A model generated the notes under the pieces. The model was not told the DNA's origin and ran no database searches. It worked only from the letters and a program-made list of their open reading frames with translations. This document shows, in pieces, positions 7,938-38,738 of a stretch of DNA of 39,962 nucleotides; position 1 is the stretch's first letter; each line of letters begins with the position of its first letter. The DNA comes from Bernardetia sp. (GTDB taxonomy: Bacteria > Bacteroidota > Bacteroidia > Cytophagales > Bernardetiaceae), in the NCBI RefSeq assembly GCF_020630935.1, contig NZ_JAHDIG010000046.1, forward strand, positions 1 through 39,962. Direction: 5' to 3'. Both the position numbers and the translations under genes were made by a program.

Positions 7938-9620
7938 CTACAATCCCAAAACATCAGCTCCCTGCTCAAAAATAATATCAACAGGAATATTTGCTTTTGA
8001 GAGTTTATCCAAATCAGCTTGTAAGTCAGCTTTGATTACTCCCATATCATTTGCTAGAGCTTGTACGCCTTCATAATCGCCATCGCCTTGAAGTGTAAGG
8101 ATTTTAGCAGAAAGTTCATTGACAGCTTCTGCCATTTTCTCTGGATTTACTTTGTATGTTCCGTCTTCTAGCTTTTCGAAAGCACCTTTTTCATTGAAGA
8201 AATTGAAACGAATCATATTTGCTTTTCCGTGTGCCGACGCAGCTCCAAAACGAACTGAACGGAAAATACCAGCTAAAAATGTTGTGTAATTGTCCATCAG
8301 TTCGCCTTCTGAAAGTTCTCCCATTTCACGGAGTTTTGTTACCATATAAAGTCCCAAAATATCAGCTTTCCCTTCCTCTAAAGCAGAAGCCATATCTTTG
8401 AGTGATTCTCTGACTGTTCCTTTGCCATTGATGGTATTTTTGATACCTAAGCCATGAGCGACTTCGTGGAACATTGTATTTTCAAAGAAGGCATCAAAAG
8501 TAATGTGTTTGCGCTGCTCTTCTGTGATAAGCATATCAGAAATAGGCACTAAAATTTGGTCAAATTTTGCCTTCATTGCATTTTTGAGCTGTGAACGACG
8601 AGTACCTTTTTTAAGTTGTACTTGCTCATCGTTAGGGAGATTTACGGCAATCGTTTTGCTACCTGCATTACAATCTCCTGCATAAAAAACAACATCATAC
8701 GCATTAAGCTGTGAGTCTGACCCCGGTTTTTCAGCTTTGTATTTTGCATCAACAGGTAAGTCTTTTTGAAGCTGTGGCAGAAGTGCAGCGTATTTTTCCA
8801 AACGCTCACTCCAAGATTTATCTTTTACCAAAACATACGACGAATAAGCTGCTTTTTGTCCATACAAATGGTCTTCATACGTTTCTATTGCTCCAATGAT
8901 AATGTCAATACCATTCGTTTTCATGTCCATCCAAGCCATATCACTTTTCATATATTCATCTGTAACAAGCGCATCGGCACGCAAAGTCAAGTATTTTTTA
9001 AGGCTTGCATCTTCTGCTAATTCAGCAGCCTGACGCAAATAATTAGCAGCTTGTTCTAATTCAGTTTTGAATTTTTCGTGATAAGGAACAATTTTTAATT
9101 TACCTTCTTCATCTCTTCTAAGAAATGTATAAAGGCTTGATTTTGCATCGTTTTCAAAAGCTTCGTACTCTTCTTTTGTCATGTTTGTTGGATAGAAGTT
9201 TGCGCCAAGTGGCTTATCTCCTACGCCTTCTATGAACGGACGATTATCTTCTAATCTATCCCAAACCCCATAGTTAATTTTGACAAATTTCTTTGTATCT
9301 GCATTATCTAAAGTGGACATCAAACTATCTTTATCTCCCATGTAGGCTTGTTGCCAAAATAATCCATCCATAATTTTGGCTGCTTCTATCAGAAGAGGAA
9401 TCATTTTTTTCTCATTTTCTGAAAGTTGGCTAACATCTGTAGTCAGTTTGAACGGCGCATAAATCTCTGGACGCACAAGTTCATTTTTGGTTTCTACAAC
9501 TACGGCAGTTGAGTCTGTGATAGTTTCTGTTGTGTCTTTTTTCTCTGGTGCACAGTTCCAAAAGCCAAGACAAATAGCTAATGAAAAAATAGCTAGTTTT
9601 GAGTTTTTTTTGATGTTCAT
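7938..9620 (-). CDS. lipoprotein zinc peptidase resembling dipeptidyl peptidase III (M49-like)
   Basis: The 560-residue product has a lipoprotein signal ending FWNCAPEKK (Cys23), so it is an envelope protein. The C-terminal half carries a zinc site: HEVAHGLG with ligands His385 and His389 and catalytic Glu386, followed about 26 residues later by LEEGKADILGLY, whose Glu415/416 would be the third ligand. This arrangement and the overall architecture resemble dipeptidyl peptidase III relatives common in Bacteroidota. True M49 enzymes have a one-residue longer HEXXGH motif, while this protein has plain HEXXH, so a related gluzincin subfamily is the safer reading. Upstream of the start lies a heptamer tandem repeat. 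Substrate and exopeptidase activity are inferred from the family only. Confidence 0.8.
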   Translation of the reverse strand: MNIKKNSKLAIFSLAICLGFWNCAPEKKDTTETITDSTAVVVETKNELVRPEIYAPFKLTTDVSQLSENEKKMIPLLIEAAKIMDGLFWQQAYMGDKDSLMSTLDNADTKKFVKINYGVWDRLEDNRPFIEGVGDKPLGANFYPTNMTKEEYEAFENDAKSSLYTFLRRDEEGKLKIVPYHEKFKTELEQAANYLRQAAELAEDASLKKYLTLRADALVTDEYMKSDMAWMDMKTNGIDIIIGAIETYEDHLYGQKAAYSSYVLVKDKSWSERLEKYAALLPQLQKDLPVDAKYKAEKPGSDSQLNAYDVVFYAGDCNAGSKTIAVNLPNDEQVQLKKGTRRSQLKNAMKAKFDQILVPISDMLITEEQRKHITFDAFFENTMFHEVAHGLGIKNTINGKGTVRESLKDMASALEEGKADILGLYMVTKLREMGELSEGELMDNYTTFLAGIFRSVRFGAASAHGKANMIRFNFFNEKGAFEKLEDGTYKVNPEKMAEAVNELSAKILTLQGDGDYEGVQALANDMGVIKADLQADLDKLSKANIPVDIIFEQGADVLGL

Positions 9621-9629
9621 GTTTTTTTA

Positions 9630-9683
9630 AGTGATTAGTGATTAGTGATTAGTGATTAGTGATTAGTGATTAGTGATTAGTGA
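9630..9683 (+). repeat. perfect heptamer tandem repeat (AGTGATT)7
   Basis: Seven exact AGTGATT units run from 9630 to 9678, followed by a partial unit AGTGA. The array lies 9 bases upstream of the peptidase start codon on one strand and about 60 bases before the four-helix-bundle start on the other, so it occupies the shared divergent promoter/leader region. Stop codons occur within the array in all frames, so it is not translated. Confidence 0.95.
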
Positions 9684-9742
9684 GAAATTACTTTCTGATA
9701 TTAATTGTTTTATTTAGTTTTACAGAAAACAAGAGAAAAATT

Positions 9743-10099
9743 ATGGGTAAAAGTATTTTAAAAGAAAAGAGTTTTCATTTTGCCGTTCGGATTGTAAATT
9801 TATGTAAACACCTAACTATCGTTCAGAAAGAATATGTTTTATCGAAACAAATTCTGAAAAGTGGAACATCAGTAGGAGCTAACATAAGAGAAGCAGAGTT
9901 TGCACAAAGTAATTTAGATTTTATACATAAACTTTCTGTTTCACAAAAGGAAATAAACGAAACTATTTATTGGTTAGAGCTTTTGAAAGAAACGAGTTTT
10001 ATAAATCAAGGAGAATTTGAAAGTTTGCATTATGATGCAACAGAAGTTTTGAAAATCATTACAAGCAGTATCAAAACAATGAAGTCAAAAATCAAATAG
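9743..10099 (+). CDS. four-helix-bundle protein (S23/IVP family)
   Basis: The 118-residue product (start ATG at 9743, MGKSILKEKSFHFAVRIV) belongs to the four-helix-bundle family first seen in intervening sequences of 23S rRNA genes and related to the Avd accessory protein of diversity-generating retroelements. The family hallmarks are present: an N-terminal helix with FAVRIVNLCKHL, ILKSGTSVGANIREAEFAQS near residue 49, and the QKEINETIYWLELL segment near 83. The function of free-standing members is unknown. A GTG at 9680 would give a longer, unlikely product that starts within the repeat array. The gene is bracketed by heptamer arrays on both sides (perfect upstream, degenerate downstream) and sits directly before recF. 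No reverse transcriptase or rRNA is nearby. Confidence 0.88.
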   Translation: MGKSILKEKSFHFAVRIVNLCKHLTIVQKEYVLSKQILKSGTSVGANIREAEFAQSNLDFIHKLSVSQKEINETIYWLELLKETSFINQGEFESLHYDATEVLKIITSSIKTMKSKIK

Positions 10100-10102
10100 T
10101 AT

Positions 10103-10137
10103 TTCAACTAATCATTAATAGTTAATAACTTATCACT
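10103..10137 (-). repeat. degenerate heptamer array before recF
   Basis: Read on the minus strand it parses in seven-base steps as AGTGATA, AGTTATT, AACTATT, AATGATT, then a weaker fifth unit. The units are clearly related to the perfect AGTGATT array at 9630. It ends 6 bases before the recF start codon and so replaces the usual ribosome-binding region. Confidence 0.6.
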
Positions 10138-10142
10138 ATTTC

Positions 10143-11240
10143 ATGTGGATAAAACACCTTCAACTCACTCATTTCAGAAATCACGAAGATACAAAGTCAG
10201 ATTTTGAAGAGCATATTAACTGTCTTGTTGGAAAAAATGGAAGTGGAAAAACAAACCTCTTAGATGGAATTTACTATCTCTGTATTGGTCGTGGGGCATT
10301 TAGCTATACAGATACACAGCACCTCCAACACGGAAAAACATTTTTCTCTTTGAAAGGAACTTTTGAGAAAGACAATCGAAAAAACACGGTTCATTGTATC
10401 ATAGAGAAGGGAAAACAAAAAACTATCAAGCTCAATGGCAAACCTTATCCCAAAATTAGTGAACATGTGGGTAATTTTCCTTGTGTGCTTCTTGCTCCTA
10501 ATGATACTGATTTGATAAGAGAAGGAAGCGAACTTCGTCGCAATTTTTTTGATACCATTATTTCACAGATTCATAAAAACTATATTCAGCTTCTCATCAA
10601 GCAAAAACAGCTTTTGAAGCAGCGCAATCAACTTTTAAAAGATGCTGACCAGCAAGAGCGTTTTCTAAAAAAAGATGTGTTAGAAATTTATGACGCACAG
10701 CTTTTGCCTATTTTTTCAGAAATCTATCGTTTTAGAAATGAGTTTATAGATAATTTTTTGCCTATTTTTTCAGAGATTTATGCAGCTTTAGCAGATGAAG
10801 AAATGAAAATAAATTATCGTTCGCACTTAGAAGAAGAAAATTTTGAAACAATTTTTAAAGAGAATTTACTCAAAGATGTAATCTTACAACGTACTGAAAA
10901 AGGAACGCACCGAGACGATTATAAATTTATTTTAGGAAAAAAAATGCTCAAACACTACGGTTCGCAAGGACAGCAGAAATCTTTTGTAATTGCGCTCAAA
11001 CTAGCTACGTTTTCTATTATTTATAATCAGACACAGATAAAACCGATTCTGCTTTTAGATGATATTTTTGATAAACTAGACGAAAACCGAATTGAAAACC
11101 TTTTGAAACTTCTTTCTAAGTCTGATTTTGGGCAAGTATTTGTAACTGACGCTCGTCCAGAGCGCACAAGAAAACTTTTAGATTCTTTTGGCAGACCTAT
11201 CGCTTTTTTTGAGGTAAAGAATGGAACAATAATCCAATAA
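10143..11240 (+). CDS. recF: DNA replication and repair protein RecF
   Basis: RecF is an SMC-like ATPase that binds gapped DNA and, with RecO and RecR, loads RecA at stalled forks. The 365-residue product shows the Walker A site GKNGSGKTNLLDGI (residues 30-43), the signature YGSQGQQKSFVIALKLA near 275-291, and the Walker B LLLDDIFDKLDENR near 304-317, in the right order and spacing. Length is normal. The start MWIKHLQLTHFRNHED is typical. In many Bacteroidota recF is followed by a DUF721 gene; here a small membrane-protein gene follows instead. A degenerate heptamer array reaches to 6 bases from the start codon, and another short AGTGATTAATCA stretch lies inside a hairpin just after the stop (11245-11280). 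Confidence 0.96.
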   Translation: MWIKHLQLTHFRNHEDTKSDFEEHINCLVGKNGSGKTNLLDGIYYLCIGRGAFSYTDTQHLQHGKTFFSLKGTFEKDNRKNTVHCIIEKGKQKTIKLNGKPYPKISEHVGNFPCVLLAPNDTDLIREGSELRRNFFDTIISQIHKNYIQLLIKQKQLLKQRNQLLKDADQQERFLKKDVLEIYDAQLLPIFSEIYRFRNEFIDNFLPIFSEIYAALADEEMKINYRSHLEEENFETIFKENLLKDVILQRTEKGTHRDDYKFILGKKMLKHYGSQGQQKSFVIALKLATFSIIYNQTQIKPILLLDDIFDKLDENRIENLLKLLSKSDFGQVFVTDARPERTRKLLDSFGRPIAFFEVKNGTIIQ

Positions 11241-11327
11241 TTATTAGCTTTTAGTGATTAATCAATAAAGAGAAAAGCTATCATCCGTACAACTAATTAA
11301 TTATCCACTAGAGCAGCGTTTTCAATT

Positions 11328-22834: not shown

Positions 22835-22843
22835 GATTTTTTT

Positions 22844-22878
22844 AGTGTTTAGTGATGAATTATTAGTTATTTAATGAT
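22844..22878 (-). repeat. degenerate heptamer array between phhA and hppD
   Basis: On the plus strand the stretch parses in seven-base steps as AGTGTTT, AGTGATG, AATTATT, AGTTATT, TAATGAT, related to the perfect AGTGATT array at 9630. It fills most of the 55-base gap between phhA and hppD, ending about 10 bases before the hppD start codon. Confidence 0.55.
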
Positions 22879-26515: not shown

Positions 26516-29500
26516 CTACCTTATTATTTCAAAAGAACCTTTCAGGATAGTTCTGATGCCTTCAAATTTTAAAACATAGAAATATGTTCCTGCTGGCAAA
26601 ATCCCCCCTGTTTCGTTTGTTCCTTGCCAGTCATTACGATAATTTTCTGTACGGAAGACTTCTTGTCCCCAACGGTTGATAATAATTAGCTCATTGTTTG
26701 GATAACGCTCTATATCTTCAACAAAAAACTCATCGTTCAGACCGTTTCCATCTGGCGTAATCACATCGACTGTTCTGACTTTTGGTGTTCCGATAACAGT
26801 GACAAAAACACTATCATAAGTAACACAACCATAGATATTTTCTGCCCTTACGGTGTACATTGTACTAATAGTTGGTTTAGCTATTGGTGTTGAGGTAGAA
26901 TCTCCTGTCAGTGTTTCGCTTGGCGTCCAAACATAATTGATTGCTCCGTTGGCAAAAAGCTGCACATCAAAGCCAATATTAATTGTTGTATCTGGTGTAA
27001 TTTCCAAAATTGGAGAAGGACGAATAGTAATAGTGGCAATATTACTACTGTCTGTAAAACAATCATTTATTACTAATCTTCTATAAAAAGTAGTTGTATC
27101 TATTGGCGTTGGCTGATAGCCAGATGTATTTGTATTAGCAATGTCTGTCCAATTGATTCTATCTCTTGAATTTTGCCATTGATAACGGAACTGTCCAATT
27201 TCGTTGAGCGTGTCTAAAAGAACTGTTCCCTCTAGTCTTCCCAATGTATCTAAACTACAATCTACAAATCCTTCATCAATGATATTATTTTTAATGGTTG
27301 GATTAATAGTAAGAGCAATAACATTTGAGGTATCACTAAAGCAAGGTACACGTACAATACGACGATATTCTGTATCAAAATTGATAGCTCCTGTAAAATA
27401 GTCTTGGTCTCCTCCTACGGTTCTCCAAACTGCCGTTGAATCGTTCAACTTTCTTGACTGCCAAACAAATCGGTATGCTGTACTGTCATTACCTCCTTGT
27501 GTTGGAAATGTTCCTCTGAGCGTATCGGCAGCAAACCCTTCACAAACTGTAGTTTGTGGAGAAGAAATCTGATTGTTTTCTATAAATCGTACGACTTCTA
27601 TTTTTACGACATTACTAAAATCTGCTGGACAATCTCCTGACCTGACTCCTCTTCGTACATAGGTTGTCCGCTGTGGGGTAACAGGGTTATAACTATTGAT
27701 AGAATCCGTTTCGGTAGGCACCCAAACTAGGCTATCAAATGAAACCTCCCATAAAATTTCTATATTGCCAGCCTCTCCTGCAATAGCTTCTGTAGCTGTT
27801 ATGATTGAAGCTGTATCTCCTTGACATATTTTCTCTCCCCCAAAAAGGAAGTTATTTCTAGCATTCTGAACTATGTTCACTAAAAGTCTATTACTTGTAT
27901 CTGGCTGACATCCTCCCAAAACAATTCTTCTAAAATAATTTACCCCTCCAAAAAGCGTATCTGGAACAAAAGTCTGTGTTCCTGTAAAGTTACCTGTACT
28001 GAAAGTAAATGTTGAACTGCTAAACCAAGCGATTGTATCTTGCGACTGTTGGTAGAAAAATTGATAGTCTTCCCTGTCGCCCTCTGGATCTGTACCTGTG
28101 ATAGAAATAGTAGTAGAATCTCCAACACAAATTTCAGTAGAAGGTGTAGTAATTTGGTTCAGTCCGAATGGCTTAGCTACTGGAATAAAGACAACATTAC
28201 TCGTATCTGTCTGACAGGTATCTATTACCAAACGCCTAAAGTAAGAAGATTCATTGAGTGCAAAATTTGGAGCATCTAATGTATCTCCTCTATCAGCCCA
28301 ATTCAAACTATCAAAAGAGAATTGCCATTGATAACTATATGTTCCTCCTCCACCTCTGGGCACAGAACCAATAACTGCCCAAGTCGTATCTCCTTCACAG
28401 ATAATTTCTCCCTCAAACTCTGCTGTAATTGTGTTATTTCTAATAGCAGAAATGACATTGACAGAAACTAAGTCACTTGTATCGACTTGACATCCTCCTA
28501 AAACAACCCTTCTAAAGTAATTTATTCCTCCAAAAAGTGTGTCTGGAACAAAAGTATGTTGTGTATCTGTAAATGTTCCTGTGCTAAATGTAAAAGTAGA
28601 ACTACTAAACCAAGCAATTGTGTCTCTTGATTGCTGATAGAAATAACTATATTCACCATCATTTTGAGGACTTGTTCCCGAAATAGTAATGGTAGCTGAG
28701 TCTCCTAAACAAATATTGGTAAAAGGAACACTAATGCTATTATCTCCGAAGGAACGAATAATTGGAATCAAGACTACATTACTGGTGTCGGTAGTACAAG
28801 AATCGATAACCAAACGTCTAAAATACGTCGACTCTGTGAGGTCAAATGGTGTAATATGAGTAGAATCATCTCGGTCTGCCCAGCGAATACTATCAAAAGA
28901 AACTTGCCATTGGTAGTTATAGTTTCCTGTTCCTCCTGTTGGATTAGTTACATCTATTCTCCAATTAAAAACTGTATCTGTTTCACAAAACCCTGTACTA
29001 TCATAAGAAATTAAGTTTGTAGCACTATCAATTTCTTTTATCATAAATAAAGTCAAGACATTACTAGGATACGACCTACAAGAATCAATTACTAACCTTC
29101 TCACTAAGAAACTATCTGGAACTTCCATAAAAACATCTGCAAAGAGCAGCGAATCATTAGGGTTATAATTTTGTAGTGTATCTACACTTGTCCAAGTAGA
29201 AGAATCTAATGAAACCTCCCACTCGTAGCGAAAACCTACTCCACCAAAAGGGGCAGTTCCTGTAATGGTCGGAATTGTATCTACCACACAGATTTGTGTT
29301 TGTGAAATAGAAATTGCAGAAGTATCATTTCCTAGGTCTGGAGAGATAAAAATATTGACAATATTACTTGTATCTCTAAAACAAGCACTTTCTACTACTC
29401 TTCTGACATAAAAAGTATCATTAGCTATCGGAGGGATATAACTTCTTCCTGCTGAATCTACACTCAACCAGTCGGCTGTATCTAATCGTGTTGCAATTTG

Positions 29501-31336
29501 CCATATATGTTTATAGTTTCCATCTCCTCCTGTCGGAATATTTCCAATAAGTGTATCTGGACGAGTACCAATACAAATGGTCTGACTTTCAAAAATAGAA
29601 TCTGCCTCTACTGGAGAAAGAGGAAAAAGCGTAATGACGTTACTTGTATCTGGCGCACAAGCTCCTGTAACAATCCTTCTAAACTGAACCGTATCTGTCG
29701 TAACGATAGAATCTGTAAACGTAAAATTTTGTGTTTGAACACTATCAATCCATGTTTGTCCAGAATCTAAAGATACTTGATAGCGATAACGCAATGGACT
29801 GGTAGCTGAAGAATCTGAAGTTGTGCCATAAATATCTGTTGGAAAATCACCCAAACAAACGCTCTGAATAGAAGGAAAAAGTGTATTCGTCGTAATATTT
29901 GGCAAAATCACTACCCTAACCTTCAAAGTTGTATCTTCTGTACAGCCTGTGTCGGGGGCAGGAACAACAATTCTTCTAAAATAAGCAGTGTCTGTGATAG
30001 TAATTCCAGCATTATTTAAGTTATAGTTTTGAACATTTCCTACCGAAGCATCTACCCAGTTAGTAGTATCACCATCTAAAGCCTGTTGCCATTTGTAAGA
30101 GAAAAAGGCTACTTCACCCAGTTCTGCCTCCGAACCTTGAATGGTGGGAAGGGGTGTTCCTTCACAAATTGTAGTATCTGGAGTGATGAGACTATTATTT
30201 GAAGGACATTCAACAACATTTACTAAAAATCTTTTTCTATTGAGTGTAACGTTTGGTGCGCCAGTATGAGTAACCTCAGCTGTATAAATTCCTTCGTGGT
30301 CGGCAACTGTGGCATTATTTACTACCAAAACACTATCATCATTTTGTTCACTAATTAAATCTCCTGCACGAAGCCAACGATAAGTTGTTGTTCCATTTAT
30401 TTGATTTACAGAAACTGTATCTTTGAATGTTCCTCCTTGTGGCACATTAATGATTTTAAAATCTCCAACGCTATCTTGTGGCGAATACGTAAAAGTATAT
30501 TGAGACTTGTTGTTAGGAACAAGGCTATTCCATTTTAATCTGTTGTTGGAAAAGTCTAATGTAATAGGTCTATTTACTGGAAGAGTAGGCACATTTTCAA
30601 TAAAATTGGAATCAATGCTGATAAAATCAAGGTCTGCAAGCGTGGCAATGTCTGTAAGTTCTACTGGAAAGTTTCCTGTAAGAGAGTTAAAACTCAAATC
30701 TAATCGCTCTATCCCTATTACATTAGCAATTTCAGAAGGAATTTCTCCTGTCAAGTCATTATTGGATAGGTTCAAATCTTTTAACGTAGTGAGCGTACCA
30801 AAACCTATCGGAATATTTCCTGTAAGCTCATTATTAGAAAAATCAATTTTAGTTACTTGGTTGAGTTTGTCTCCTCCAAACATAGAGGCTGGCACTGAAT
30901 TTTTTAGCCCCTTATTACTCAAATTAAGTTCTAAAACACAACTATCACTCGCATTCAAGACCACCCCATCCCATGTCGTCCAAGGGTCTGTAAGTATCCA
31001 AGGGTTTGTCCAGTTTGCACCATCAGTAGCATTATAGAGTTCTACCAAAGCCAAAGAATCATCTGGCAAACACATCAAACGATACATTTCCTTTTTAGAC
31101 AGAGGACTGAGTAATGCTTTTGGAAAATGGTTCTGAAAAACATTATTTTCAATGAAAGTTGTTTCTGTTTCCAACAGAAGAGTTTCTAAATGATTTTTCT
31201 TAATGAAAGGAGTAGTAAAAGCAGTAAGTCCTACTACAAAAGCAGCTACAAATAAAACTTGCCAACACTTTGTAAGTTTTCTTTTATGGATAGTACTATT
31301 GATAAATAATTGTTTTAGTAATTGTAACGGATTCAT
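26516..31336 (-). CDS. giant secreted adhesin-like protein with LRR, Ig-like repeats and T9SS type B sorting domain
   Basis: The 1606-residue product has an unusually long signal region (hydrophobic part near residues 27-43 after a basic 25-residue head). Next come leucine-rich repeats at about 130-255 (LDLSFNSLTGNFPVELTD), an Ig-like domain near 285-375 (DHEGIYTAEV), and about eleven Ig-like repeats of 92-102 residues (376 to 1440), each with a paired WQ-DS-W core, a YFRRLV segment and a C-TDTSNVV end. Then follow a PKD-like domain and a type B C-terminal sorting domain (TPDGNGLNDEFF, NELIIINRWGQEVF, GTYFYVLKF; about 1525-1606). It is exported by the type IX system. Cysteines are two per repeat, suggesting internal disulfides. 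Repeats 5-6 and 7-8 are recent copies. Probable cell-surface adhesion or gliding role; the ligand is unknown. Confidence 0.93.
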   Translation of the reverse strand: MNPLQLLKQLFINSTIHKRKLTKCWQVLFVAAFVVGLTAFTTPFIKKNHLETLLLETETTFIENNVFQNHFPKALLSPLSKKEMYRLMCLPDDSLALVELYNATDGANWTNPWILTDPWTTWDGVVLNASDSCVLELNLSNKGLKNSVPASMFGGDKLNQVTKIDFSNNELTGNIPIGFGTLTTLKDLNLSNNDLTGEIPSEIANVIGIERLDLSFNSLTGNFPVELTDIATLADLDFISIDSNFIENVPTLPVNRPITLDFSNNRLKWNSLVPNNKSQYTFTYSPQDSVGDFKIINVPQGGTFKDTVSVNQINGTTTYRWLRAGDLISEQNDDSVLVVNNATVADHEGIYTAEVTHTGAPNVTLNRKRFLVNVVECPSNNSLITPDTTICEGTPLPTIQGSEAELGEVAFFSYKWQQALDGDTTNWVDASVGNVQNYNLNNAGITITDTAYFRRIVVPAPDTGCTEDTTLKVRVVILPNITTNTLFPSIQSVCLGDFPTDIYGTTSDSSATSPLRYRYQVSLDSGQTWIDSVQTQNFTFTDSIVTTDTVQFRRIVTGACAPDTSNVITLFPLSPVEADSIFESQTICIGTRPDTLIGNIPTGGDGNYKHIWQIATRLDTADWLSVDSAGRSYIPPIANDTFYVRRVVESACFRDTSNIVNIFISPDLGNDTSAISISQTQICVVDTIPTITGTAPFGGVGFRYEWEVSLDSSTWTSVDTLQNYNPNDSLLFADVFMEVPDSFLVRRLVIDSCRSYPSNVLTLFMIKEIDSATNLISYDSTGFCETDTVFNWRIDVTNPTGGTGNYNYQWQVSFDSIRWADRDDSTHITPFDLTESTYFRRLVIDSCTTDTSNVVLIPIIRSFGDNSISVPFTNICLGDSATITISGTSPQNDGEYSYFYQQSRDTIAWFSSSTFTFSTGTFTDTQHTFVPDTLFGGINYFRRVVLGGCQVDTSDLVSVNVISAIRNNTITAEFEGEIICEGDTTWAVIGSVPRGGGGTYSYQWQFSFDSLNWADRGDTLDAPNFALNESSYFRRLVIDTCQTDTSNVVFIPVAKPFGLNQITTPSTEICVGDSTTISITGTDPEGDREDYQFFYQQSQDTIAWFSSSTFTFSTGNFTGTQTFVPDTLFGGVNYFRRIVLGGCQPDTSNRLLVNIVQNARNNFLFGGEKICQGDTASIITATEAIAGEAGNIEILWEVSFDSLVWVPTETDSINSYNPVTPQRTTYVRRGVRSGDCPADFSNVVKIEVVRFIENNQISSPQTTVCEGFAADTLRGTFPTQGGNDSTAYRFVWQSRKLNDSTAVWRTVGGDQDYFTGAINFDTEYRRIVRVPCFSDTSNVIALTINPTIKNNIIDEGFVDCSLDTLGRLEGTVLLDTLNEIGQFRYQWQNSRDRINWTDIANTNTSGYQPTPIDTTTFYRRLVINDCFTDSSNIATITIRPSPILEITPDTTINIGFDVQLFANGAINYVWTPSETLTGDSTSTPIAKPTISTMYTVRAENIYGCVTYDSVFVTVIGTPKVRTVDVITPDGNGLNDEFFVEDIERYPNNELIIINRWGQEVFRTENYRNDWQGTNETGGILPAGTYFYVLKFEGIRTILKGSFEIIR
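27866..28446 (-). repeat. duplicated Ig-like pair within the adhesin, copy 2 (repeats 7-8)
   Basis: Encodes residues about 964-1157. It matches repeats 5-6 (28447-29035) in order and detail: WADR near the start, DTSNVV, then FYQQS-DTIAWFSSSTFTFSTG. Boundaries are approximate (within about 10 bases). Confidence 0.75.
28447..29035 (-). repeat. duplicated Ig-like pair within the adhesin, copy 1 (repeats 5-6)
   Basis: Encodes residues about 768-963. Protein and DNA similarity with repeats 7-8 is far higher than between other repeats of this protein, pointing to a recent in-frame tandem duplication of about 585 bases. Confidence 0.75.
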
Positions 31337-34754: not shown

Positions 34755-34796
34755 ATTGATAAATGAATTTATAATTTACCACTTATCATTAACTAA
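34755..34796. repeat. degenerate heptamer array
   Basis: The stretch parses in seven-base steps as ATTGATA, AATGAAT, TTATAAT, TTACCAC, TTATCAT, TAACTAA and resembles the heptamer family at 9630. It lies directly after a terminator and runs into the stop codon of the minus-strand gene at 34793. Confidence 0.4.
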
Positions 34797-36142
34797 AGTG
34801 CTGGGTAATAACTATCCAATATATTGACAATATCTTTCAAACGAGGAAGATTTACAGCACGACGAATGCCAGCAACAGCTTCTGTTTTCTTGCTCTTTAA
34901 GATGTCAATTTGTGTCTGTACTTTTGTAGGCTCACTACTCAAATTTTGAGCAACTGCTCCCTGCAAAATAACAATCGTATTACGACTATTTTCATCTATC
35001 ATAGAAATATACTGTCCATAGAGGTAATCAAATTCTTTATAAAGGTAAATCACATCCTCAATTTTTTTGTTTGCTTCCATAATATGAGGATACTTTGCCA
35101 TCAGCTTAGAATAATCTACTTTTCCTCCTTTAGTAAACTCTTTTTCTAGCTTATCAAAATAAGCTGTTACAGCAGCTTTGTTGTAAGTTCTAAATACTTT
35201 CAACAAATATTCTCCATTCGTAACAGTGCCTTCTGGCTCTTTAATCTCAACATTGAATTTCAAACCTTTTGCATGAAGATTTACGTATTCTGTAAGTTTT
35301 TCGTGCAAGTTGGTAGTCTGAACTTGGTAGTTATCAATGTTATTTGCAAAACGAGCATTTACCAAATTCAATTTTGCATAATACGCTGTATATTTTTCCA
35401 ACTCATTTTTAAACTCTTGTACATCTCCTTCACTTACATCTTTTCTTTGAGCTGCAATTCCAGAAACAAAACCCAAAACCGAAGTAGCAATATTAACAAC
35501 TGGTGTAGCTGAAGCAATATTACTTACTACTGGGTCTTGCAAAAGCATATTGGCAATATTGAGTATTTTTTGTCCTCCTTTATCTTTTTTACTGACAAGT
35601 TTTTTCTCCATTAGCTGCATAACTTTATCATTGTAGGAAAAACCTAATGTTTCATCAGCAGGATTGTTCAAACTATTGAGCATTGTTCTATAGCTCTCTA
35701 CTTGATTGATAGCATAAAGTGTATTCAAACGGTCGTTCAAAACTTCAAAAAATTCAGCCGAATGAATAAGATTTGTTCTGACCATTTTATAACGAGCCTC
35801 ATCTGTCAGCTCCACACGACGAGAAACTCCCTTCACAATCGCATCATTTTTTTCTACAGTTTCTTTATATAAACTCAAATCAGAAGAAAGAACAGTAATT
35901 TGTTGAGTACGATTTTTTAAAGAATCTGTTAGAGCCAATACCTTTAGACTATCTCTTTGGCGTTGGTCAGTCAGTACCTGATAACGACGTACAAAATCTT
36001 GATTTTGTTGTTGGAGTTGTCGTTGCTCAGAACGAAGCTCATCTATAGCTTTCAAAATAAGGGCAACGCTATCTTGTGCTGATACTGAATACACAATACC
36101 AGACATAAAAAATAAAAGGAGAAATAAGGATTTTTTCATCAT
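34793..36142 (-). CDS. secreted coiled-coil protein, unknown function
   Basis: The start is set at 36142 (MMKKSLFLLLFFMSGIVYSVSAQD, 449 residues), which gives a signal peptide with cleavage near VSAQ; an upstream ATG at 36193 adds 17 residues that are not signal-like. The mature protein begins with a long coiled coil (about 28-95, DELRSEQRQLQQQNQDFVRRYQ...) and continues as a mostly helical protein with a hydrophobic middle (NIASATPVVNIATSVLGFVSGIA, about 205-230). It has no recognisable catalytic motif. It is probably periplasmic. It converges on the barrel gene at 34034 and is followed, upstream, by a set of tiny lipoproteins. Confidence 0.75.
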   Translation of the reverse strand: MMKKSLFLLLFFMSGIVYSVSAQDSVALILKAIDELRSEQRQLQQQNQDFVRRYQVLTDQRQRDSLKVLALTDSLKNRTQQITVLSSDLSLYKETVEKNDAIVKGVSRRVELTDEARYKMVRTNLIHSAEFFEVLNDRLNTLYAINQVESYRTMLNSLNNPADETLGFSYNDKVMQLMEKKLVSKKDKGGQKILNIANMLLQDPVVSNIASATPVVNIATSVLGFVSGIAAQRKDVSEGDVQEFKNELEKYTAYYAKLNLVNARFANNIDNYQVQTTNLHEKLTEYVNLHAKGLKFNVEIKEPEGTVTNGEYLLKVFRTYNKAAVTAYFDKLEKEFTKGGKVDYSKLMAKYPHIMEANKKIEDVIYLYKEFDYLYGQYISMIDENSRNTIVILQGAVAQNLSSEPTKVQTQIDILKSKKTEAVAGIRRAVNLPRLKDIVNILDSYYPAL

Positions 36143-36259
36143 ATAAATATAAAATTGCTGTATATGCTTTAATGTACGAAAAAGTGGATTCAAACTAAAA
36201 GATACAAATAAATTGATTACACAATCGTGATAAGAGAGTTTTTATCAGATTTTTTTCAG

Positions 36260-37058: not shown

Positions 37059-38738
37059 ATGATAATACGTACAAATCTTGTAAATATTGCAGAAAAAACA
37101 ATTTTCCCTGCTCAAATTACTATTCAAGAGGGCAAAATTCATTCCATAGAAAAAATTACAGATAAAAATCAAGAAGTAGAAAACTATGCACTTTGTGGTT
37201 TTATAGATGCACATATTCATATCGAAAGTTCGATGCTTGTTCCTTCCAAGTTTGCTCAAATGGCAGTTGTACACGGCACAGTAGCTACCATTTCCGATCC
37301 TCACGAAATTGCCAATGTAATGGGAATGCAAGGAGTAGAGTTTATGGTAGAAGATGGAAATAAAGTTCCTTTCAATTTCTTTTTTGGTGCGCCTTCCTGC
37401 GTTCCTGCGACGAGTTTCGAAACGGCTGGAGCAACTATTTCAGTAGAAGACATTGAAAAACTAATGAGCCAACCTCATATTAAATATTTATCAGAAATGA
37501 TGAATTACCCTGCTGTTTTGGCAAGAGATGAAGAAGTGATGGCAAAAATTGAGGCTGCAAAAAAACAAGGAAAACCCATCGACGGACACGCTCCAGCTCT
37601 TAAAGGAGAAGATGCAAAAAAATACATAGAAGCAGGAATTAGTACCGACCACGAGTGTTTTACGTCAGAAGAAGCCTTAGATAAGCTAAAATATGGCATG
37701 AAAATCATTATCAGAGAGGGAAGCGCAGCTAAAAATTTTGATGCGCTGATTGATTTGTTGCCAAAGCATTATGAAAATATGATGTTTTGTTCTGATGACA
37801 AACATCCTGACGACCTTATCGAAGGACATATAAATCTTTTGGTAAAACGTGCTATAAAGCTAGGAATTGATAAATTTAAAGTATTACAAGCAGCCTGTAT
37901 CAATCCTATAGAACATTATAATTTAGAAGTAGGACAGCTTAAAGAAGGAGATAAAGCCGATTTTATTATCGTAAAAGACTTAGAAAATTTTGAAGTCTTG
38001 GAAACTTATATTGGTGGACAAAAAGTTGCTCAAAACGGCAAATCATTTATCAAAGATGTAGAAACAAAAGCTATCAATCAGTTTAATGTACAACCTAAAA
38101 AAGTATCCGATTTTACAATTACCCAAGAAAAAGTAACTCAAAAAAATCAAGATTCTACTAAAATTGAAGTTATTGAAGCCTTAGACGAACAGCTCATTAC
38201 AAATCCTGTTTTTATAGAAATTGACAATCTTACAGATATAAATGGAAATCTAGTTTCAAATTCTCAAATTGATGTCTTAAAAATTGTCGTTGTAAATCGT
38301 TATCAAACTGATGCACCAGTTGCTGTCGCATTTATTAAAAACTTTGGTTTAGAACGTGGTGCAATTGCATCTTGCGTGGCACATGATTCTCATAATATTG
38401 TGGCTGTTGGTGTTACAGATGAAGATATAACAAAAGCTGTAAATTTAGTTATTGGAGAAAAAGGAGGTATTTCAGCAACAGATGGAAAAGAAAATCATCA
38501 TGTTTTGCCTCTACCAGTAGCAGGAATTATGTCCTTAGAAAATGGCAAAGAAGTTGGAGAAAAATATGCACAAATTGATAGCTTTGCAAAAACATTAATG
38601 AGCAATCCTATTAAACTTCACGCACCTTTCATGACACTTTCCTTTATGGCTCTTTTAGTTATTCCATCATTAAAACTAAGTGATAAAGGACTTTTTGATG
38701 GAGGAAAATTTGAATTTGTGAAAGGCTGGGAAGTTTAG
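37059..38738 (+). CDS. ade: adenine deaminase
   Basis: The enzyme hydrolyses adenine to hypoxanthine and ammonia in purine salvage. The 559-residue product has the amidohydrolase metal site [13 protein letters not shown] (His52 and His54), the [17 protein letters not shown] block near 77-93, GHAPAL near 177, DHECF near 197 and the [11 protein letters not shown] block near 243. The C-terminal part has the adenine-deaminase-specific segments [30 protein letters not shown] and PLPVAGIMS. The length is normal. The start [14 protein letters not shown] is natural. It is followed after 42 bases by manC on the same strand, but they have no known shared pathway. Confidence 0.95.

Follow-up and report, generated by a model that had tools for sequence, protein, structure and literature searches.

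Seven-base repeat arrays form inverted arms around genes for 23S rRNA-intervening sequence proteins in Bernardetia and other bacteria

The stretch of DNA analysed here, called the window, comprises 39,962 nucleotides of a contig of Bernardetia sp. (NZ_JAHDIG010000046.1). Between a peptidase M49 family gene and recF it carries a gene for a 23S rRNA-intervening sequence protein (IVP) with a seven-base-periodic array on either side. We describe such a unit as an IVP cassette, its terminal arrays as arms and their seven-base units as heptads. The features of the window are as follows.

7938..9620, minus strand: gene of the peptidase M49 family, flanking the cassette opposite recF (PF03571, E 1.7e-15)
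9630..9683, plus strand: perfect (AGTGATT)x7.7 array that forms the 5′ arm of the IVP cassette (TRF; inverted match to the 3′ flank; copy number varies at the equivalent site)
9684..9742, plus strand: leader from the 5′ arm to the IVP start, resembling sequence beside three solo AGTGATT arrays in the genome
9743..10099, plus strand: gene for an IVP / S23-like four-helix-bundle protein of 118 aa (PF05635, TIGR02436, PDB 2rld)
10105..10139, minus strand: five degenerate heptads in the opposite orientation to the 5′ arm, forming the cassette's 3′ arm (inverted match; profile)
10143..11240, plus strand: recF, the downstream neighbour of the cassette (TIGR00611, E 6.4e-97)
22842..22876, plus strand: solo arm of five degenerate AGTGATT-type heptads with no adjoining IVP gene (above all 60 shuffles)
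34765..34799, minus strand: arm of the L083/L086 type, probably solo (24 exact nt in common with the arm of L086; marginal profile)

The window also holds a gene whose 1606-aa product carries a T9SS type B sorting domain (26516-31336, minus strand) and an adenine deaminase gene (37059-38738, plus strand).

An earlier note on this DNA, made from its letters alone, had described a perfect AGTGATT array at 9630-9683 and degenerate arrays near 10103-10137 (minus strand), 22844-22878 and 34755-34796. TRF run on the window gives 7.7 units at 100% match at 9630-9683, in agreement with the note. The degenerate arrays are missing from the TRF output at score 30, and lag-7 scoring at threshold 10 detects the perfect array only; self-similarity alone thus does not reveal them. 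Lag-7 self-similarity as the sole detector was therefore abandoned as too insensitive for decayed arms, and we used profiles of five heptads, built from IVP arms at other sites, with 60 Markov shuffles of the window as the control.

By this measure the second and third arrays are real: 10105-10139 (minus) and 22842-22876 (plus) score above everything in the 60 shuffles. At 34765-34799 (minus) the profile score is marginal (E 1.4 and 0.48 per window with two profiles), but 24 nt of the site recur exactly in the 5′ arm of a relative's IVP cassette (L086). Among 713 other 56-nt tiles, the best exact match to that arm is 14 nt, reached by two tiles, one of which (34777-34832) overlaps the site itself. 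A short trace that the note had placed at 11253-11266 gains no support from the profile (11234-11268, E 0.2). That all arrays lie between genes holds in general, except that 34765-34799 overlaps the final bases of an ORF (34793-36193).

The arrays at 9630-9683 and 10105-10139 are the two arms of one IVP cassette upstream of recF, with an inverted match score of 40 for the complementary ends around the ORF. The array at 22842 is a solo arm and that at 34765 probably is. The arrays are not free-standing microsatellites; the first two are cassette arms, and the others are solo arms or relics. The note had proposed comparing AGTGATT copy numbers between isolates, and these do differ among relatives: at the equivalent site, O-methyltransferase|IVP|recF, the 5′ array has just under 2 units in one relative (G004) and 14.7 in Bernardetia sp. 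Wsw4-3y2, compared to 7.7 in the window. The window's 5′ arm was probably lengthened by slippage.

The product of the gene at 9743-10099 matches PF05635 (E 6.2e-26, 91.1 bits against a cut-off of 33.8) and TIGR02436 (E 2.5e-31, 108.1 bits against a cut-off of 24), both of which describe the 23S rRNA-intervening sequence protein (IVP, S23), a four helix bundle protein family. PF05635 is its sole match at E 1e-3 in the domain search, which returned no IS200/IS605-like tyrosine transposase, and none of the searches made linked the IVP to a nuclease. It also matches PDB 2rld (E 2e-37); both solved IVP entries, 2rld and 2gsc, hold five chains each. To our knowledge, S23/IVP proteins have solved structures and no assigned function. 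One of them, Xcc0516 (2gsc), is described as five four-helix bundles in a title among the references of PMC10053308. A search of the window genome (4.75 Mb, 153 contigs) found four PF05635 genes, and all four lie between inverted seven-base-periodic flanks, with AGTGATT as the unit twice, ATCAGTA once and a mixed RGTKRTA type once.

Inverted heptad arms flank IVP genes in several phyla. Among the matches listed, we collected 26 IVP loci from the genus, 2 more from the family and 27 more from the order (the order search matched 107 of 145 genomes), together with 80 named loci from 586 GTDB relatives. This gave 135 loci in all, 133 of them usable and 2 with flanks that were too short; one further locus (L095) was dropped as a fragment of another (L091). 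Taking an inverted flank similarity of at least 26 as the cut-off and cross-paired flanks as controls, 90 of the 133 loci among the matches listed have similar inverted 5′ and 3′ flanks, compared to 26 of 665 cross-pairs; the count treats as a miss one locus (L033) that scores 44 or 21 depending on the gene boundary chosen. The remaining 43 loci fall under the cut-off. In direct orientation, similarity was found in 27 of 133 loci and 8 of 665 cross-pairs. For the genus, family and order loci, 41 of 55 score above all 30 shuffles of each.

The dominant periods are 7 and its multiples. Lag-7 runs occur in 42.1% of 266 IVP flanks compared to 3.9% of 456 farther segments. Lags 14 and 21 come next; lags 8 and 15 reach 3.8% and 3.0% of IVP flanks, and the remaining lags from 3 to 20 at most 2.3%. 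The heptad units differ from locus to locus and agree inside a locus.

Arms were also found on plasmids and viral contigs. All 18 plasmid loci, taken from 25 matching records (15 cyanobacterial and one each from Bernardetia, Treponema and Chlorohelix), score between 34 and 84, with the qualification that some cross-paired plasmid flanks with a unit in common score no lower than true pairs. Inverted arms are present at 22 of 31 distinct IVP loci on viral contigs. One viral-contig locus (L370) has period 8, with about five octads per arm. On a Nostoc plasmid (L263), the arms share an inverted repeat of about 50 bases, most of which lacks heptad periodicity; it looks as though one arm were a copy of the other.

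The arms have a preferred size. Counting five-base cores at seven-base pitch, a measure that is blind to very short arms, we found exactly five cores in 36 of 79 upstream and 34 of 79 downstream arms. A second count gave 24 and 24 of 44 in the order set and 19 and 16 of 53 in the GTDB set. At one orthologous site, odhB|lpd, the numbers are 15 and 20 of 27; on plasmids, where many arrays are longer, five is still the commonest count (5 and 4 of 16). Varying the cut-off from 0.5 to 3.0 bits leaves five as the mode, with 112 to 129 of 280 arms. A 33-nt arm consists of four whole heptads and a five-base core, so whether it has four or five units depends on how this last, partial unit is treated. 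The arms are also polar: on the coding-strand side of the 5′ arm, AG is found in the units of 87 of 113 loci compared to 14 of 113 for the reverse complements. Unit similarity tracks protein similarity across these 113 loci (Mantel r 0.27, p 0.001), which is what one would expect of an arm that travels with its gene.

Cassettes prefer junctions between same-strand genes: both neighbours lie on the IVP strand for 105 of 125 cassettes, compared to 114 of 273 genes of the own-genome sample. Such junctions include thiolase-IVP-acyl-CoA dehydrogenase, odhB-IVP-lpd and the junction between the genes for the large and small subunits of the aconitase family. The gene beside thiolase in L279 (2888-3499) has no Pfam match at 1e-8 and so was not named an IVP gene. 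On Nostoc and Anabaena plasmids (L265, L266), an IVP gene lies between cas2 and cas1 on the opposite strand. In one genome (L277; G050 contig C10, 61200-68000) the order is mraY-IVP-murD-IVP-ftsW/rodA family-IVP-murG-IVP-murC, that is, four different IVP genes occupy four successive junctions of a cell-wall gene cluster.

The window cassette itself appears to mark a rearrangement with both breakpoints at IVP cassettes, judging from gene order (window 9620-10143; L037; L130; L251). The window genome has cassettes at M49|recF and at tgt|O-methyltransferase, compared to one at O-methyltransferase|recF in G004 and Wsw4-3y2. Over 510 bases, the two breakpoint cassettes are 85% alike. The neighbourhood of M49 in relatives was tried as a guide to the ancestral position of the second cassette, but in five of them the 700 bases just upstream of M49 contain no IVP gene.

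The odhB|lpd junction offers a view of cassette turnover within one genus. The region was matched in 70 of 72 genomes and both flanks were available for 66. Of these, 28 carry an insert the size of a cassette; in the other 38 the two genes lie 28-242 nt apart. Many of the 38 retain heptads, and one (L307) is a decayed IVP. On the flank tree of these 66 genomes, 18 presence changes are needed, 15 of them forced by well-supported branches. Shuffled labels average 21.5 changes, so cassette presence is barely clustered on the tree. The cassette has thus been repeatedly gained, lost or exchanged at this junction. Only two genomes have nearly clean sites (G176 and G202, 28 and 54 nt). Seven IVP-less spacers (L290, L301, L309, L311-L313 and L315) of about 135 bases resemble compact inverted arm pairs and look MITE-like.

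The protein is under purifying selection, with a median dN/dS of 0.147 (56 pairs with dS<1.5, leaving out L232, which has an early stop, and L244, which has no intact ORF). Its divergence tracks that of the flanks (Mantel r 0.77), which argues that inheritance at odhB|lpd is mostly vertical. Some copies nonetheless look recently transferred, on the sequence comparison: dS is 0.10 for the IVP gene compared to 0.87 for lpd in one pair (L227/L229) and 0.12 compared to 0.97 in another (L237/L246). Identity between L227 and L229 is 0.96-0.98 across most of the cassette; it drops to 0.86-0.89 at the cassette's 5′ edge, and values in the flanks are mostly 0.78-0.93. The median dS(IVP)/dS(lpd) over 40 pairs is 0.39 (the very diverged L324 left out), a ratio that may in part reflect constraint on the cassette and not transfer.

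Cassette copies inside one genome are 70-85% alike in nucleotides and so give no sign of a recent transposition burst. No target-site duplication was found at the cassettes, and no clean empty site could be paired with a near-identical filled one: the flanks of G164 are 91-93% identical to those of G049, with different heptads.

Next to the paired arms, arrays occur on their own. At eight sites the window genome carries three or more perfect AGTGATT units; two of these sites adjoin IVP genes and three sit at contig ends. The earlier note had pictured a dispersed intergenic family running from perfect to decayed copies. A 400-kb sample of the genome bears this out: it holds five strong lag-7 arrays, all intergenic, one array at lag 6 and none at lags 4, 5 and 8-11, and a TAACTGA x7.9 array is present in it. 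One shuffle per stretch of the sample yields no lag-7 array, so neither of the findings that the note had named as refuting it, equal periodicity in shuffled sequence or a lack of similar arrays elsewhere in the genome, was obtained. Three solo AGTGATT arrays (G000 C16:33833-33898, C104:9219-9279 and C134:4246-4315) share a 60-base core followed by AATTCGT-type sequence, and AATTCGT fragments occur at many further genome positions. We considered these cores as relics of an IVP leader and set the idea aside: their likeness is significant against the window's own leader only, and not against the leaders of L032 and L077.

With the threshold at 10, the 400-kb sample contains 12 intergenic lag-7 arrays, and another 15 come from 400 kb of four other IVP-bearing genomes of the order. 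In 364 kb from four genomes without a detected IVP gene there are none. The total is therefore 27 arrays in 800 kb compared to none in 364 kb, for genomes of similar G+C content (0.34-0.58 and 0.32-0.56, respectively); shuffles give 4 and 2 arrays. The chance that all 27 arrays fall in the IVP-bearing group is about 4e-5 if bases are treated as equal. Seven lag-8 arrays were found between genes in the IVP-bearing genomes, and few other periods are enriched there. Among the 27, 12 are 31-33 bases long, the length of one arm. This result suggests that intergenic arrays depend on IVP genes in the few genomes sampled.

Several known systems resemble the cassette. The closest in protein is the rRNA intervening sequence (IVS) with S23/IVP ORFs of Leptospira, Coxiella and others, in which a gene of the same family lies between complementary ends (PMC4990558). 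These IVSs are sporadic and horizontally acquired, and work cited in PMC4990558 suggested earlier that the ORF serves mobility. An rRNA IVS sits inside an rRNA gene, whereas the window cassette lies between the M49 peptidase gene and recF, and the cassettes described here generally lie between protein genes, end in heptad arrays and are accompanied by abundant solo arms. Avd of diversity-generating retroelements also resembles PF05635 and is essential for retrohoming (PMC10053308).

The closest in organisation is RAYT/REP, in which the gene always lies between two inverted repeats, the repeats are also dispersed between genes and their abundance is tied to gene presence (PMC2817692), as for IVP genes and arrays. 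RAYT is an IS200/IS605-like tyrosine transposase, whereas the IVP matches PF05635 only; REPs are palindromic and heptad arms are not. The cassette is thus best read, by analogy, as organised like RAYT/REP but without a recognisable transposase.

Heptamers of the same period have been described in the same taxa. TAACTGA repeats are intergenic in Beggiatoaceae, cyanobacteria and Bacteroidetes, including Flexibacter litoralis (PMC4679880). In one Beggiatoaceae genome, MacGregor (2015) located them mostly just upstream of start codons and suggested a TAACTGA-binding protein as a possible mobile element (PMC4679880), in a main text with no mention of S23, four helix or 23S and no link to IVP. One array of the window's own genome is a head-to-tail intergenic array of this type; the window's unit differs (AGTGATT). 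The GGGNATC and GGGGA(C/T)T heptamers of Xanthomonas and Nostoc are likewise intergenic, mostly between aligned ORFs, with 70 and 75 inverted pairs in two genomes (PMC4692102). Their G-strand either closely follows a stop or, in antisense, closely precedes a start, and IVP arms show the same polarity. They were read as G4 repeats with a preferred length of four units in Xanthomonas and Nostoc, unlinked to known mobile elements, in passages of PMC4692102 that mention neither S23 nor XCC0516; the Xcc genome encodes this solved IVP. Cyanobacterial IVP loci carry heptad arms of the same kind as the window cassette. The earlier note had likened its arrays to the heptamers of filamentous cyanobacteria but called the unit unrelated. 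The likeness stands, and the tie is not to an unrelated unit alone: AATTCGT, the unit of the Nostoc and Dolichospermum IVP loci, is scattered through the window genome too. Apart from PMC10053308, the searched passages of the literature with '23S rRNA-intervening sequence protein' contain no heptamers. Nothing joining IVP genes with heptad arrays was found in the open-licence literature, a scope that leaves novelty unproven since subscription journals mostly lie outside it.

Taken together, we consider it probable that the arrays are the ends, or relics of the ends, of IVP cassettes, and that these are small mobile units recognised by a pentamer. We infer that IVP pentamers would bind their own arms, one heptad per subunit, with the ring reading a strand. 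Such recognition could bring a cassette into intergenic junctions by homing, copying or exchange. Help for the copying might come from host replication, repair or another enzyme; we invoke the host because the IVP resembles no nuclease. Loss of the IVP gene would leave solo arms, which may then slip into long perfect arrays or decay.

The alternative that survives best, although we regard it as unlikely, takes the cassette for an mRNA version of the rRNA intervening sequence that would be transcribed as part of the operon and excised or processed as a hairpin, with the IVP as passenger or chaperone and the inverted repeats kept for base pairing, not protein recognition. The 23S rRNA IVSs, in which the family is indeed known, have ends that pair into a stem cleaved by RNase III (PMC4990558); most cassettes lie between same-strand genes, and a few loci (L087, L265) show unit-by-unit register between the arms. 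A paired stem predicts an excess of G-U-compatible arm mismatches, which is absent in 89 arm pairs with duplicates counted once (95 versus 109, p 0.36) and so lends it no support. In-register similarity is weak after re-optimised heptad permutation, with 60 of 91 above the permuted mean and p<0.05 in 7 of 91 only. Moreover, neither the seven-base periodicity nor the solo arms are needed for a stem, and some cassettes, such as those at cas2/cas1, are oriented against the host operon.

Less probable again is that the arrays are bound by a host regulator of translation or transcription, or form G-quadruplexes, with IVP genes merely near some of them. TAACTGA repeats lie mostly just 5′ of start codons, where translational control was proposed (PMC4679880), and GGGNATC repeats form G4 in vitro according to Rehm (2015; PMC4692102); yet the latter source identified no role in gene regulation and G4s are impossible for AT-rich units. 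Regulatory sites also fail to predict paired inverted arms round one gene family in several phyla, units that vary between loci yet agree within a locus, or the absence of arrays from IVP-less genomes. We give hardly any weight to neutral microsatellites that expand and decay by slippage independently of any element: perfect arrays do vary at the equivalent site and slippage surely acts on arms, but the enrichment of period 7, its multiples and traces of 8 only at IVP flanks, the arm length centred on five heptads, the inverted pairing around IVP genes and the AG polarity make this reading insufficient.

The reading of the arrays as ends of pentamer-recognised cassettes can be extended. More tentatively, and with somewhat less than even confidence, we propose that IVP cassettes are a widespread class of recombinase-less mobile or homing units, that their abandoned arms gave rise to the TAACTGA, GGGNATC, AATTCGT and probably STRR repeats of Bacteroidota, cyanobacteria, xanthomonads and others, and that the rRNA IVS is the special case of a cassette inserted in an rRNA gene. 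We know of no accepted cause for heptamer repeats, which have been described several times. The link between IVP genes and heptamers gives the protein a candidate ligand, the 33-nt arm with five cores, and the repeats a candidate source; it would explain the published and so far unexplained TAACTGA and GGGNATC heptamers. It also carries a warning to assemblers and annotators, since AGTGATT arrays end contigs (three of eight). The cassette, with differently worded repeats, occurs in many bacterial groups. If its mobility is real and involves no transposase, DNA would here have an uncommon means of spreading through operon junctions, those of cell-wall and central-metabolism genes among them.
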